The notes under the pieces were generated by a model, which searched no databases, was not told where the DNA came from, and worked only from the letters and a program-made list of their open reading frames with translations. A program made the translations under genes and the position numbers. From Tepidanaerobacteraceae bacterium (GTDB lineage Bacteria > Bacillota > Thermosediminibacteria > Thermosediminibacterales > Tepidanaerobacteraceae): a stretch of 64,000 nucleotides of DNA. Positions 34,981 to 42,258 of this stretch are shown here, piece after piece. The stretch lies in contig JANLFP010000013.1 of the NCBI GenBank assembly GCA_024655905.1, positions 1 to 64,000 on the forward strand, written 5' to 3'. Numbering within the stretch: position 1 is the first letter of the stretch; every line of letters begins with the position of its first letter.

Positions 34981-35009
34981 TTGACAAATCGTTGGGATAT
35001 TAATATAAT
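34981..35009 (+). promoter_or_regulatory. Perfect consensus sigma-A promoter upstream of the tRNA array
   Basis: TTGACA (34981-34986), exactly 17 bases, TATAAT (35004-35009). About 165 bases separate it from the first tRNA, and a second promoter lies between. Confidence 0.8.
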
Positions 35010-35140: not shown

Positions 35141-35169
35141 TTGACACCCGCTAGATTCTAAGGTATACT
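35141..35169 (+). promoter_or_regulatory. Sigma-A promoter of the tRNA array
   Basis: TTGACA (35141-35146), 17 bases, TATACT (35164-35169), 14 bases before tRNA-Val. Confidence 0.85.
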
Positions 35170-35183
35170 TATTATTGTCTTCA

Positions 35184-35259
35184 GGGCGGATAGCTCAGTC
35201 GGGAGAGCACGTGCCTTACAAGCACGGGGTCACAGGTTCGATCCCTGTTTCGCCCACCA
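35184..35259 (+). tRNA. tRNA-Val (anticodon TAC)
   Basis: Cloverleaf with acceptor GGGCGGA, anticodon loop CTTACAA on a CGTGC/GCACG stem, T-loop GGTTCGATCC and encoded CCA. First gene of the array. Confidence 0.97.
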
Positions 35260-35271
35260 AGAAAAATTTGC

Positions 35272-35349
35272 GGCCCAGTAGTTCAGTTGGTTTAGAACGC
35301 CAGCCTGTCACGTTGGAGGTCGAGGGTTCGAATCCCTTCTGGGTCGCCA
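35272..35349 (+). tRNA. tRNA-Asp (anticodon GTC)
   Basis: Acceptor GGCCCAG pairs with CTGGGTC; anticodon loop CTGTCAC on CCAGC/GTTGG; T-loop GGTTCGAATCC; encoded CCA. Confidence 0.97.
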
Positions 35350-35356
35350 TATTTGA

Positions 35357-35432
<76 letters not shown>

Positions 35433-35440
35433 TAGGTTAT

Positions 35441-35515
35441 GCGGAAGTGGCTCAGTGGTAGAGCATCGCCTTGCCAAGGCGAGGGTCGCGGGTTCAAATC
35501 CCGTCTTCCGCTCCA
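35441..35515 (+). tRNA. tRNA-Gly (anticodon GCC)
   Basis: Acceptor GCGGAAG pairs with CTTCCGC; anticodon loop TTGCCAA on TCGCC/GGCGA; encoded CCA. Confidence 0.97.
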
Positions 35516-35528
35516 TTTTGTATATTGC

Positions 35529-35602
<74 letters not shown>

Positions 35603-35614
35603 TAATAAATAAAG

Positions 35615-35703
35615 GCCGGGGTGGCGGAACAGGCAGACGCACAGGACTTAAAATCCTGCGGGTAGAAATACCCATACCGGTTCGATTCCGGTTCCCGGCA
35701 CCA
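35615..35703 (+). tRNA. tRNA-Leu (anticodon TAA), integration site
   Basis: Acceptor GCCGGGG pairs with TCCCGGC; anticodon loop CTTAAAA on CAGGA/TCCTG; a long variable arm (CGGGTAGAAATACCC); encoded CCA. Its last 59 bases, from the anticodon loop to CCA, are repeated exactly at 42082-42140, so the gene stays complete after integration of the element to its right. Confidence 0.97.
35645..35703 (+). repeat. Left attachment site (attL), 59-bp direct repeat
   Basis: Identical over all 59 bases to 42082-42140; the match ends exactly at the CCA on the right and one base before the anticodon-loop region on the left (G versus A). This is the classic tRNA 3'-end attachment site of tyrosine-recombinase elements. 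Confidence 0.95.
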
Positions 35704-35765: not shown

Positions 35766-35813
35766 TCCAGCGAAGCTGAAAATACCGCACAGGGGTATAT
35801 TTTATGCGCTGGA
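35766..35813. repeat. Nested inverted repeat around a CGCACAGG site
   Basis: Outer arms TCCAGCG (35766-35772) and CGCTGGA (35807-35813); inner arms ATACC (35782-35786) and GGTAT (35794-35798); the centre carries the 14-mer ACCGCACAGGGGTA. It lies between attL and the integrase start, where Int/Xis arm sites or an integrase operator would be expected. Confidence 0.6.
35784..35797 (+). repeat. CGCACAGG-family site 1 (14-mer)
   Basis: ACCGCACAGGGGTA, identical to site 4 at 40428-40441. It is at the centre of the nested inverted repeat. Confidence 0.7.
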
Positions 35814-35953
35814 CTTTACACACAGGACCAGGCATATTGGCTGAATTGAAATTACATAACCCTTGTAACCCTTACAAAATAAATCCGGATTGAAAGGTTT
35901 AAGCCCTTCTTTCATATTACCAGCTAACCGGTAAATGCAAAGGAGGGTTTATT

Positions 35954-36892
35954 ATTTTTTACTCGGATTCAGATTCAAATACATTCAGGTGGAAGGAAGC
36001 ATTAGAAGGGTTCAAATGGTGGAAAAAAGCTCAGGGAATAAGCGAAGCCACAATAAACGATTATCAGGGGCATGTAACACGATTTTTTAATACATACCCA
36101 CAGGCAGCAGATAACTTCAATACCCTGCGGCTGTGCGTAATGGAATATATGGCACAGAAGATGAAACCGGCCACATATAACCTTAGATTGGTTTATTTGA
36201 AAGCATTTTTTAAGTGGTGTATTGGAGAAGGATACCTTCAGAAAAACCCATTGGATGGGCTTAAAAGAAGGAAAGCTGAACCCAGGATAGTCGATATTGA
36301 TACTGAAATCCTGCAAAAGCTCTTACATTTACCTCATAAAAGTACATTTGCAGGTTTAAGGGATTATGGGCTGCTTTTAATTACACTTGATACGGGTTTA
36401 AGGCCGAAGGAAGCCTGCTCATTACTTATAAACGATATTAATTTCAGGACCCTTGAAATAACCGTCAGGGCAGAAGTATCGAAAACAGGAAGCACCAGGA
36501 CATTACCCATATTGCCAATTACGGCAAAAGCCATTAAGGACCTTATAAATGCAAGACATCCAGCCTGGAAAGAAAATATTCCGGTATTTTGCTCAAGTGA
36601 AGGGACCTTCTTTACAAAGGATTCATGGAGAAGCAGGCTGGATATGTATAGCAAGATACTGGGAACACACATAAGGCCATATGACTTACGGCATACCTTC
36701 GCTGTAATGTATCTTCGGAATGGTGGCCTTGAACTGGGCTTACAAAGAACTCTGGGGCATACCACCCTATTTATGACTAAGACTTATGTGCATTTTACAA
36801 ACAAGGATATGCACGATATGAATAACATAGCCTCACCTTTAAACAATTTACTGCCTCAGAAAAATCGAGTTAGGAAGATTCGACGGCCTTAA
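35954..36892 (+). CDS. int: Tyrosine-recombinase integrase, no canonical start codon
   Basis: About 312 aa from ATT 35954. Seen: an N-terminal core-binding (SAM-like) domain (KWWKKAQGISEATINDYQGHVTRFF at about 20-44; ATYNLRLVYLKAFFKWCIGEGYLQKNP at about 75-101), and a catalytic domain with Arg in DTGLRPKEA, Lys in SKTGSTR, HxxR in DLRHTFAVMYLRNG, His in LGHTT and the Tyr nucleophile in KTYVHF. The frame has no ATG, GTG or TTG from the stop near 35897 to ATG 36140, which would delete the core-binding domain. AGGAGGG at 35941 points to ATT 35954 (or ATT 35951). A single-base change in the T6 run at 35955-35960 would instead join the frame to ATG 35935, which has no ribosome site. Confidence 0.88.
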   Translation: MFYSDSDSNTFRWKEALEGFKWWKKAQGISEATINDYQGHVTRFFNTYPQAADNFNTLRLCVMEYMAQKMKPATYNLRLVYLKAFFKWCIGEGYLQKNPLDGLKRRKAEPRIVDIDTEILQKLLHLPHKSTFAGLRDYGLLLITLDTGLRPKEACSLLINDINFRTLEITVRAEVSKTGSTRTLPILPITAKAIKDLINARHPAWKENIPVFCSSEGTFFTKDSWRSRLDMYSKILGTHIRPYDLRHTFAVMYLRNGGLELGLQRTLGHTTLFMTKTYVHFTNKDMHDMNNIASPLNNLLPQKNRVRKIRRP

Positions 36893-37089: not shown

Positions 37090-37308
37090 ATGGATACAAA
37101 TACAGAATTCGGCTACATTACAACAGAGGAAGCAGCAAGGATACTCGGGGCAAGCAGGAAGACCATCGTCAGGAAGGTAGAGAAAGGACTACTGCCAGGT
37201 GTCAAAATAGCCAGAAGGATTCTCGTTGACAGGGAAGGTCTGGAGCAGCTTAAGAAGCAGTTTAAGCTGTGGAAAAGAAACAAGAACTATAAACCCGTTT
37301 TAAGTTGA
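37090..37308 (+). CDS. xis: Excisionase-like/MerR-type helix-turn-helix protein
   Basis: 72 aa. Seen: YITTEEAARILGASRKTIVRKVEKGLLPGVKIARRILVDREGLEQL, the winged-helix pattern of the excisionase/'HTH_17' domain, with a basic C-terminal tail (KLWKRNKNYKPVLS). In such elements it bends DNA for excision and may also regulate transcription. It starts at ATG after AAGGAGGTG and lies right after the integrase, with its own promoter. Whether it is a true directionality factor cannot be told from sequence. Confidence 0.8.
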   Translation: MDTNTEFGYITTEEAARILGASRKTIVRKVEKGLLPGVKIARRILVDREGLEQLKKQFKLWKRNKNYKPVLS

Positions 37309-38050: not shown

Positions 38051-38112
38051 ACAGTTAACATTCTACCAAAAAAGTGCCGAAAAATCAATATTTATTTTGG
38101 AGGTGTATATTT

Positions 38113-40410
38113 ATGAATTCAACAATAGATATGATGCAAGAAGCATTAAAATATGCTGATATCGATGAATATGGTTTTGGTAAGGTTATACCACTAAAGC
38201 CTAAGTCAAAGGAACCTATAACTGACCCTGAATTAGGGCTAATTAATGGTGAATACTCAGCTATTAATGACAAAGAAAAGATTATAGCCTGCTGGAGCAA
38301 ATACCCTGATGCCAATATAGGTCTAGTCTTGAATAGCAGCGACATAGTGGTAGTCGATGCTGACAATGAAGAAGCTATACAGGAACTAGAAGCATTGGGA
38401 ATACCTGAAGATACCCAGATAGTGCAGACCAGCAGGGGCAGGCATTACTACTTCCAGAGGCCCAAAAACCTCCCTCAGAGGACCTACGTAAAGGTGGGAA
38501 AATCCAGAAGCATTGACATAAAGGCTAATGGATATGTGCTGGTTCCACCCAGTATCCATCCTGATGGGACCCAATATGAATGGGTAGAAGTATCTTTCCT
38601 GGGTGGGCCGGAATACTACATGCTGCCGGAAGCACCTGCATGGATATGGGACCTTATAGACGCACAGGGGGGTAAGGCAGCGAATAGTGAAATAGATGAA
38701 CTGATGAAGCAGTATCCTGAACAGACACCAAGGGAAGTTTTACGTAAAAAATACTCTCATATAAGCATAGATGAGATTAATCTTAATGTAAACCCTTGGA
38801 AGGACAGGTCAGTGGGAAGCTATGCCACAGCAAAAGCCCTGGCAGAGCAGGGAATAACCGATATTCAGGATATTGCCACAGTAGTTTATCATACACCCTG
38901 GCACCAGGACAGATTAAAAAACCCTGACCCTGAACGGAGAAAATTCAAGGATGAATATGCTGCCTGGAGAGATGCTCTAGACTGTGCTAATGATGCAATA
39001 AAGAAGACACGGCAAAATGGGGAACAGCGAATAACAGTTATTGGCTTTAAGGACTCAGTATCTAGCAAAGGAGATGAGAACATGAGCATACAGGCTACTG
39101 AACCAGTAAGCGAAGAAGAAGTGGAAGTAACTACAGAAGCACAAGAAGCACAAGAATCAGCCTCAGATAAGTTTCCTGAAGAAACTTACACAGGGATTAT
39201 TGCTGACATAGCTGAGGCTTTTGCTGAAAGGACAGAAGCTCCAAAGGAATTCTATTATATGGCAGGTTTAACAATACTAGGGGACCTTATAACCGGCAGA
39301 ATAACCATTGAATCACTGCTAGATATACAGCCTAGACTCTATACAGTTCTACTGGGGCCATCAGCGGATGCCAGGAAATCCTGGGCAATAGAGTCTATGG
39401 TGGAGTTCTTTAGAGAAACCCTTGAAAGTCATAGGGAAATTGGGGTGGAATTGAATATCCAAAATGGCCTTGGTTCCATCGAAGGGATGGCAAAAGAATG
39501 TTTACAGCCAAAGGACGGCAAGCTAAATCCCTGCCTGCTCTTACTGGATGAGTTCAGGCTACTTGTTGATAAGACCAGATATAGCGGCTCGGCATTACTC
39601 CCGGTAATCTGCTCATTGTTCCACAAGAATGAATATGATAACTCTACAAAAGGCCATTCCATACACCTGAAGGATGCCCATCTATCGATGCTTGGAGCTT
39701 GTACCATAGACACATATGAGAATATATGGGAGCCTGCCTTCATGGACATTGGGTTGCCAAACCGGTTATGGCTGGTTGCAGGCAGGTCTAATAGGAGAAT
39801 AGCCTTACCACCTGAAATTCCCGAGGATATAAAAAAGCCTTTACAGGAAAGATTAGCAGACATAATCGCACAGGTGTATGAAAGAAGTGGAGGTGGCCTG
39901 CAAGGTATACTAGATGCAAAAGGCAATATTATTCCCGTTTCCGACCCTACCCTGAACCCGATTAAGCTGAAACTCACTGACGAAGCCTCCAATATGTGGG
40001 ATGAACATTACCAGAACATGCCCAGAAGTATTCATACCAAAAGACTTGACGCATACGCTATGCGGTTTATGATACTCCTTTCAGTATCGGAAGGGAACCT
40101 TGAAACGGTAAAAAAGCATATTGTGGAAAAGGCCATAAAGCTGATTGAACATCAAAAGGTCTTACGTATGCAGTATGACCCTATCGATGCAGACAATAAG
40201 ATTGCCAGGATGGAACAGAACATCAGGAGGCATTTAGGGCTTTTTGGTCAATTGACTGAAAGGGAATTAAAACAAAAAGTCAATGCCAATAGAAACGGTT
40301 TATGGGCTTTTCAAGCTGCCATAAAAAATCTAATAGATGCTGGTGAAATTAACAATAAGACAAGAGGTAGGTCTCAAATATACTGGCTGGTTGAACCTGA
40401 TTTCGATTGA
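38113..40410 (+). CDS. Primase-polymerase/DUF3987-type replication protein
   Basis: 765 aa. The N-terminal part (about 15-190) is a bifunctional primase-polymerase domain: IPLKPKSKEPIT, the metal-binding DADNEEA after SSDIVVV, the catalytic histidine in TSRGRHYYFQRP, and DIKANGYVLVPPSIHPDG. An acidic linker (EPVSEEEVEVTTEAQEAQES) separates it from a DUF3987-like ATPase region (about 355-680) with a P-loop-like GPSADARKSWAIES and LLLDEFRLL. A small C-terminal winged-helix region follows (LFGQLTERELKQKVN). It is likely the element's replication initiator or helicase-primase. ATG 38113 after TGGAGGTG. It carries two CGCACAGG octamers (38661, 39867). Confidence 0.82.
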   Translation: MNSTIDMMQEALKYADIDEYGFGKVIPLKPKSKEPITDPELGLINGEYSAINDKEKIIACWSKYPDANIGLVLNSSDIVVVDADNEEAIQELEALGIPEDTQIVQTSRGRHYYFQRPKNLPQRTYVKVGKSRSIDIKANGYVLVPPSIHPDGTQYEWVEVSFLGGPEYYMLPEAPAWIWDLIDAQGGKAANSEIDELMKQYPEQTPREVLRKKYSHISIDEINLNVNPWKDRSVGSYATAKALAEQGITDIQDIATVVYHTPWHQDRLKNPDPERRKFKDEYAAWRDALDCANDAIKKTRQNGEQRITVIGFKDSVSSKGDENMSIQATEPVSEEEVEVTTEAQEAQESASDKFPEETYTGIIADIAEAFAERTEAPKEFYYMAGLTILGDLITGRITIESLLDIQPRLYTVLLGPSADARKSWAIESMVEFFRETLESHREIGVELNIQNGLGSIEGMAKECLQPKDGKLNPCLLLLDEFRLLVDKTRYSGSALLPVICSLFHKNEYDNSTKGHSIHLKDAHLSMLGACTIDTYENIWEPAFMDIGLPNRLWLVAGRSNRRIALPPEIPEDIKKPLQERLADIIAQVYERSGGGLQGILDAKGNIIPVSDPTLNPIKLKLTDEASNMWDEHYQNMPRSIHTKRLDAYAMRFMILLSVSEGNLETVKKHIVEKAIKLIEHQKVLRMQYDPIDADNKIARMEQNIRRHLGLFGQLTERELKQKVNANRNGLWAFQAAIKNLIDAGEINNKTRGRSQIYWLVEPDFD

Positions 40411-40807: not shown

Positions 40808-40820
40808 TACCCTGTGCGGT
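40808..40820 (-). repeat. CGCACAGG-family site 5 (inverted)
   Basis: The minus strand reads ACCGCACAGGGTA, one G shorter than the 14-mer, in the gene-free region between the primase and the small membrane protein. Confidence 0.65.
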
Positions 40821-41978: not shown

Positions 41979-42007
41979 TTGACAGTGTATAACTGAGGGT
42001 GTATAAT
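41979..42007 (+). promoter_or_regulatory. Perfect consensus promoter at the element's right end, firing outward
   Basis: TTGACA (41979-41984), exactly 17 bases, TATAAT (42002-42007). The next feature downstream is attR and then tRNA-Val(GAC); no element gene lies in this direction. The sequence differs from both promoters before the tRNA array, so it is not a copy of them. Confidence 0.85.
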
Positions 42008-42081
42008 ATAATCAATCCAGATAAGCTGGTATTGTGGAAGTGGGTTAAATCCTTATGTGATGCGGGTTTCAGGTCTTTAAA

Positions 42082-42140
42082 GACTTAAAATCCTGCGGGT
42101 AGAAATACCCATACCGGTTCGATTCCGGTTCCCGGCACCA
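42082..42140 (+). repeat. Right attachment site (attR), 59-bp direct repeat
   Basis: An exact copy of the 3' part of tRNA-Leu (anticodon loop to CCA). It is not a complete tRNA by itself. The tRNA-Val gene starts 8 bases further on. Confidence 0.95.
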
Positions 42141-42147
42141 GAGATGT

Positions 42148-42222
42148 GGGCGCTTAGCTCAGTGGGAGAGCACTTCCTTGACGCGGAAGGGGTCGTAAGT
42201 TCAATCCTTACAGCGCCCACCA
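42148..42222 (+). tRNA. tRNA-Val (anticodon GAC), separated from its array by the element
   Basis: Acceptor GGGCGCT pairs with AGCGCCC; anticodon loop TTGACGC on CTTCC/GGAAG; encoded CCA. Before integration it would have been the last gene of the tRNA array. Confidence 0.97.
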
Positions 42223-42228
42223 TTTTTT

Positions 42229-42258
42229 TGCTTGCCGAAAGCAAGTTTTTTTATTTTT
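42229..42258 (+). terminator. tRNA array terminator
   Basis: CTTGC-CGAAA-GCAAG (42231-42245) followed by TTTTTTTATTTTT, 9 bases after tRNA-Val. Confidence 0.75.

Follow-up and report, generated by a model that had tools for sequence, protein, structure and literature searches.

A right-end promoter of a small tRNA-targeting integrative element probably serves integrase in the excised circle and may also transcribe a displaced tRNA-Val(GAC)

A small integrative element inside a tRNA array

The window, the 64,000-nt stretch of Tepidanaerobacteraceae DNA analyzed here, contains an array of tRNA genes in the order Val(TAC)-Asp-Phe-Gly-Cys-Leu(TAA) (35184–35703, + strand, as are all features below unless noted). 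Two promoters precede it, a distal one with a perfect consensus (TTGACA-17-TATAAT, 12/12 matches, 34981–35009) and a proximal one with a single mismatch (TTGACA-17-TATACT, 11/12, 35141–35169). A 6.4-kb element sits mid-array, between tRNA-Leu(TAA) and tRNA-Val(GAC) (42148–42222). Its left attachment core (attL, 35645–35703) is the 3′ part of the intact tRNA-Leu(TAA), and the identical 59 nt recur at the right end as attR, a displaced 3′ part of that gene (42082–42140). The terminator-like hairpin and U-run of the array (42230–42252, −6.3 kcal/mol) now lie beyond the element, behind tRNA-Val(GAC), and terminator scoring finds none between tRNA-Leu and the leader of the integrase gene (int). Rfam returns nothing at the locus beyond the tRNAs.

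Pfam and PHROGs scans of six element proteins identify only a tyrosine integrase (PF00589, 35954–36892), an HTH_17 excisionase-like protein (37090–37308), and a primase/replication protein with Prim-Pol and DUF3987 domains (38074–40410). The same scans of these six proteins detect no conjugation genes (relaxase, coupling protein, or type IV secretion system), and we see no packaging or capsid genes in the element. The integrase gene starts 250 nt after tRNA-Leu. The 75 nt before its start are predicted to fold with −23.6 kcal/mol (z −4.8), and the leader contains a terminator-like hairpin (35898–35953) that abuts the int start and holds the ribosome-binding site GGAGG (35942). Most members of the integrase family have a similar terminator-like leader hairpin, with the ribosome-binding site in the 3′ arm and a U-run abutting the int start codon. 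At the conserved start, the window int has no ATG, GTG, or TTG and apparently begins with ATT, where most relatives have ATG. Either this ATT at 35954 acts as a rare start codon or the gene is damaged, and the window int may be poorly expressed or dead.

A perfect outward promoter at the right end

The element also carries an outward promoter of perfect consensus (TTGACA-17-TATAAT, 12/12; 41979–42007, predicted start ~42014), located 74 nt inside attR and aimed through the tRNA-Leu fragment at tRNA-Val(GAC) and the terminator. An initial annotation of this DNA had described such a promoter with no element gene between it and tRNA-Val(GAC), reading through attR and tRNA-Val into a terminator, and we recover this layout in full. 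There is no plausible gene between the promoter and tRNA-Val(GAC), which rules out the reading that the promoter serves a right-end gene of the element. Perfect sites with 16–18-nt spacers occur 50 times in the 3.2-Mb genome versus 3 times for the reversed pattern (~17-fold); from this excess, perfect sites in this genome are predicted to be real promoters. The reversed-pattern control rules out chance occurrence of the 41979–42007 site: the final 100 nt of the element would hold a correctly oriented site by chance only ~5 times in 100,000.

Promoters accompany tRNA-Val(GAC) genes separated from tRNA-Leu

Relatives within the family and order keep tRNA-Leu and tRNA-Val(GAC) in one array, with 6–8 nt between them (29 nt in one). 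These empty sites show that the displacement of tRNA-Val(GAC) is real and bear out the claim that insertion parted it from the array promoters, which in the window lie >6.9 kb upstream.

We compared the sequence upstream of Val(GAC) in 22 genomes, the window included. A promoter lies just upstream in 11/11 genomes where Val(GAC) is separated from tRNA-Leu and in 0/11 where the two are adjacent, the separated cases being partly non-independent: one promoter type is common to G009, G014, and G005, another to G003, G013, and G018 (that of G004 resembles theirs by eye), and in the more distant G022, G024, and G025 separation may reflect gene order, not insertion. In the 11 adjacent cases, the best promoter score within 200 nt is 3.1–7.4, no better than shuffles. 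In the 11 separated cases, a clear promoter stands 43–169 nt upstream; ten of these were scored (12.2–17.2, shuffle P ≤ 0.01), while the eleventh, G024, was seen in the upstream comparison. The separated genes have promoters of at least five types. Given this variety and the 11/11 versus 0/11 pattern, transcription of Val(GAC) appears to be kept by selection.

In G003, G013, and G018, the promoter before Val(GAC) belongs to the end of an unrelated element, one with a serine recombinase, the same tRNA-Leu target, and a 21–22-nt attR. Its outward extended −10 promoter precedes attR, directly in front of Val(GAC); since its recombinase gene, seen in G003, is oriented toward attL, int in the circle could not be read from this promoter. 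Elements of two unrelated kinds, with a tyrosine integrase or a serine recombinase, have inserted repeatedly at the tRNA-Leu/tRNA-Val(GAC) junction (G005, G003, G013, G018, and G009), and in G005 (C1 1842240–1906594) both kinds occupy it in tandem. There, the serine element keeps its promoter even though the DNA that comes next is a 1.4-kb host segment equipped with a Val promoter.

How far the host needs this gene is a separate matter. A copy-number check proposed in the initial annotation shows tRNA-Val(GAC) to be single-copy among the 45 tRNA genes found; tRNA-Val(TAC) and tRNA-Val(CAC) are also encoded, so Val(GAC) may be non-essential, and copy number does not decide the point. Dependence of the host on the element, which the annotation had also raised, is unlikely because precise excision would restore the array and these two other tRNA-Val species are present.

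Some related elements share right-end promoters where no different tRNA closely follows

The integrase has relatives behind a variety of intact tRNAs, in the same orientation, with int ~50–250 nt inside attL. For 26 elements with mapped attR, including that of the window, we took the best outward promoter within the 200 nt inside attR and ranked it against all scanning windows of its own element, using hand-set sigma-A weights. Eight of the 26 (window, G005, G293, G337, G036, G205, G047, and L162) have a right-end promoter at or above the 97th percentile, positioned at −103 to −152 from attR. With the near-identical homologue G337 dropped, the count is 7/25 (P = 6.5 × 10^-6, binomial test); controls give 1 on the inward strand and 0 at the left end, and search sizes of 150 and 300 nt give 6/25 each. 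Conservation of the promoter at related right ends is thus partial, and a universal right-end promoter across the family can be rejected, the sigma-A-like matches of the other elements being weak or absent.

In all promoter-bearing elements except that of the window (7/8), no different tRNA stands close behind attR. Six of these (G337, G293, G036, G205, G047, and L162) carry strong outward promoters 105–152 nt inside attR, which largely contradicts the view that such a promoter exists for a downstream tRNA only. In G036, G205, and L162, the attR repeat contains the target tRNA itself, complete or almost so, and this copy could be transcribed from a promoter of this kind. In G293, which has two tandem elements, the right-end promoter of the first aims through att into the int of the second, a join like that of a circle. 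The seventh, the tyrosine-integrase element of G005, has another element behind attR, not a tRNA. It is the sister of the window element in the int tree (63% int identity), the right ends of the two are homologous (score 98.5 vs. 75.8 ± 5.9 for shuffles), and TAGACA-17-TATAAA (10/12) occupies the place aligned with the window promoter. This aligned site and the related elements with no different tRNA closely following attR argue that the right-end promoter is older than the window insertion and is not bound to a downstream tRNA.

A probable integrase promoter that could also serve tRNA-Val(GAC)

Right-end promoters in relatives with no different tRNA behind attR, together with the aligned 10/12 site in G005, make an integrase promoter the best reading: the site at 41979–42007 probably serves a small integrative element that targets tRNA genes as its 3′-end, circle-state integrase promoter and, in the mid-array position, would also drive tRNA-Val(GAC). 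In the excised circle, the promoter would lie upstream of attP and read into int over a ~375-nt leader. In the integrated state, the tRNA-array promoter would reach int behind tRNA-Leu, damped by the terminator-like hairpin that holds the ribosome-binding site, and the 3′-end promoter would point outward, at most sites facing no further tRNA. Because the element of the window inserted mid-array, its promoter would here transcribe attR, tRNA-Val(GAC), and the terminator, standing in for the lost array promoter, and tRNA-Val would mature from this right-end precursor. One step of this scheme has no explanation: folding predictions keep the leader hairpin closed in the transcript of the circle too (pairing 0.98–0.99), which leaves read-through into int unaccounted for, and a search for a right-end antiterminator that would open the hairpin in the circle predicted none. 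The suggestion that the promoter is an adaptation making the insertion harmless survives in part. A promoter is supplied, and the pattern at separated Val(GAC) genes agrees with it; the presence of such promoters in related elements with no different tRNA closely following attR argues that this is not its primary purpose. Rescue of tRNA-Val(GAC) is plausible, but probably as a secondary use.

A dedicated role, in which the element has its promoter because insertions here survive only with tRNA-Val(GAC) transcribed, would fit the promoters found at every separated and no adjacent Val(GAC), as well as the unrelated serine element, whose outward promoter cannot serve int in the circle. We nevertheless consider it unlikely, given the strong right-end promoters of related elements that lack a different tRNA just behind attR, the serine promoter kept in G005 despite the host Val promoter behind it, and the possible non-essentiality of Val(GAC). 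Less probable again is an origin in place, by mutation of the AT-rich element end after insertion and selection for re-expression of tRNA-Val(GAC), so that the promoter was not inherited with the element. Among the right-end sites found in the family, that of the window alone matches at 12/12 positions, and several separated Val(GAC) genes are preceded by their own, unrelated promoters, both in keeping with such an origin; against it stand the 10/12 site of the G005 sister element, with the same 17-nt spacing at the aligned position, and the right-end promoters at similar distances in other family members. Element ends are also protein-bound regions, and the site might be repressed when integrated, for example by bound integrase or excisionase, leaving tRNA-Val(GAC) silent or read from elsewhere. 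The perfect consensus, a class of site in ~17-fold excess over the control in this genome, and the promoter at every separated Val(GAC) make this the least probable of the readings considered.

The integrase-promoter reading has experimental parallels in ICEKp1, ICEclc, and ICEEc1, where int is driven by the tRNA promoter in the integrated state and by a 3′-end promoter in the excised state, with stem-loops in the int leader (PMC13023037); for ICEclc and ICEKp1, the 3′-end layout was shown experimentally to be the integrase promoter of the excised circle (PMC13023037). As in ICEKp1, where int lies ~200 nt behind an intact tRNA and the tRNA terminator has moved to the far end (PMC13023037), int in the window adjoins its target tRNA in the same orientation at 250 nt, and the terminator is displaced to the far side. 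Both elements also have a terminator-like stem-loop in the int leader (35898–35953 in the window, z −4.8) and a 3′-end promoter upstream of att that would read int in the circle (PMC13023037), a role that the 12/12 site at 41979 is predicted to play. The window element differs from ICEKp1 in being a 6.4-kb Bacillota element in which a primase but no conjugation genes are seen; in addition, a displaced tRNA gene stands before its 3′-end promoter. ICEclc likewise has a constitutive promoter close to one end that faces outward and, once the element circularizes, drives intB13; its outward activity has served as a reporter trap (PMC13393423). ICEclc is a far larger conjugative element of Proteobacteria, with a tRNA-Gly target and unrelated gene content. 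By gene content, the small size and int–HTH excisionase–primase order liken the window element to phage satellites of the PICI type, from which it differs in that no packaging or capsid genes are seen. Its particular feature, as judged from sequence, is the mid-array position, with a 3′-end promoter predicted to take over tRNA-Val(GAC). The ICEKp1 paper does not take up the case of a tRNA lying beyond the 3′-end promoter, and the phrase "downstream tRNA" is absent from its text (PMC13023037); among the papers searched, there was no precedent for rescue of a downstream tRNA by tRNA-borne elements.

These observations extend the ICEKp1/ICEclc layout of int control from the conjugative elements of Proteobacteria, where it is known, to a family of small Bacillota elements. 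A circle-state integrase promoter could also neutralize the cost of insertion within a tRNA operon, which may explain tolerance of mid-array sites. A broader possibility, which we put forward tentatively and regard as doubtful, is that selection favors an outward promoter in elements that insert into tRNA operons, one that maintains expression of the displaced operon part. Two unrelated recombinase classes would then have converged at tRNA-Leu on an exchange of promoters, with int served by the host tRNA promoter and the orphaned tRNA by that of the element. The 11-versus-11 pattern at tRNA-Val(GAC) makes the question of selection directly testable.

Integrase relatives and repeats at element ends

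Integrase relatives with 40–63% identity also occur in IMG/VR (G409–G413), where predicted proviruses of 36–69 kb carry them at an end or close to one; larger elements thus share the integrase module. The ends of the 26 related elements hold extra copies of the anticodon arm of their own target tRNA, in either orientation (95 shared 8-mers versus 11.0 expected from the tRNAs of other elements; 47 versus 3.8 for 9-mers). One possible role for these repeats is as accessory sites for the integrase that follow the target. The window contains four copies of CCGCACAGG, every one within the element, at 35785 and 40429 on the + strand and at 40811 and 41750 on the − strand.
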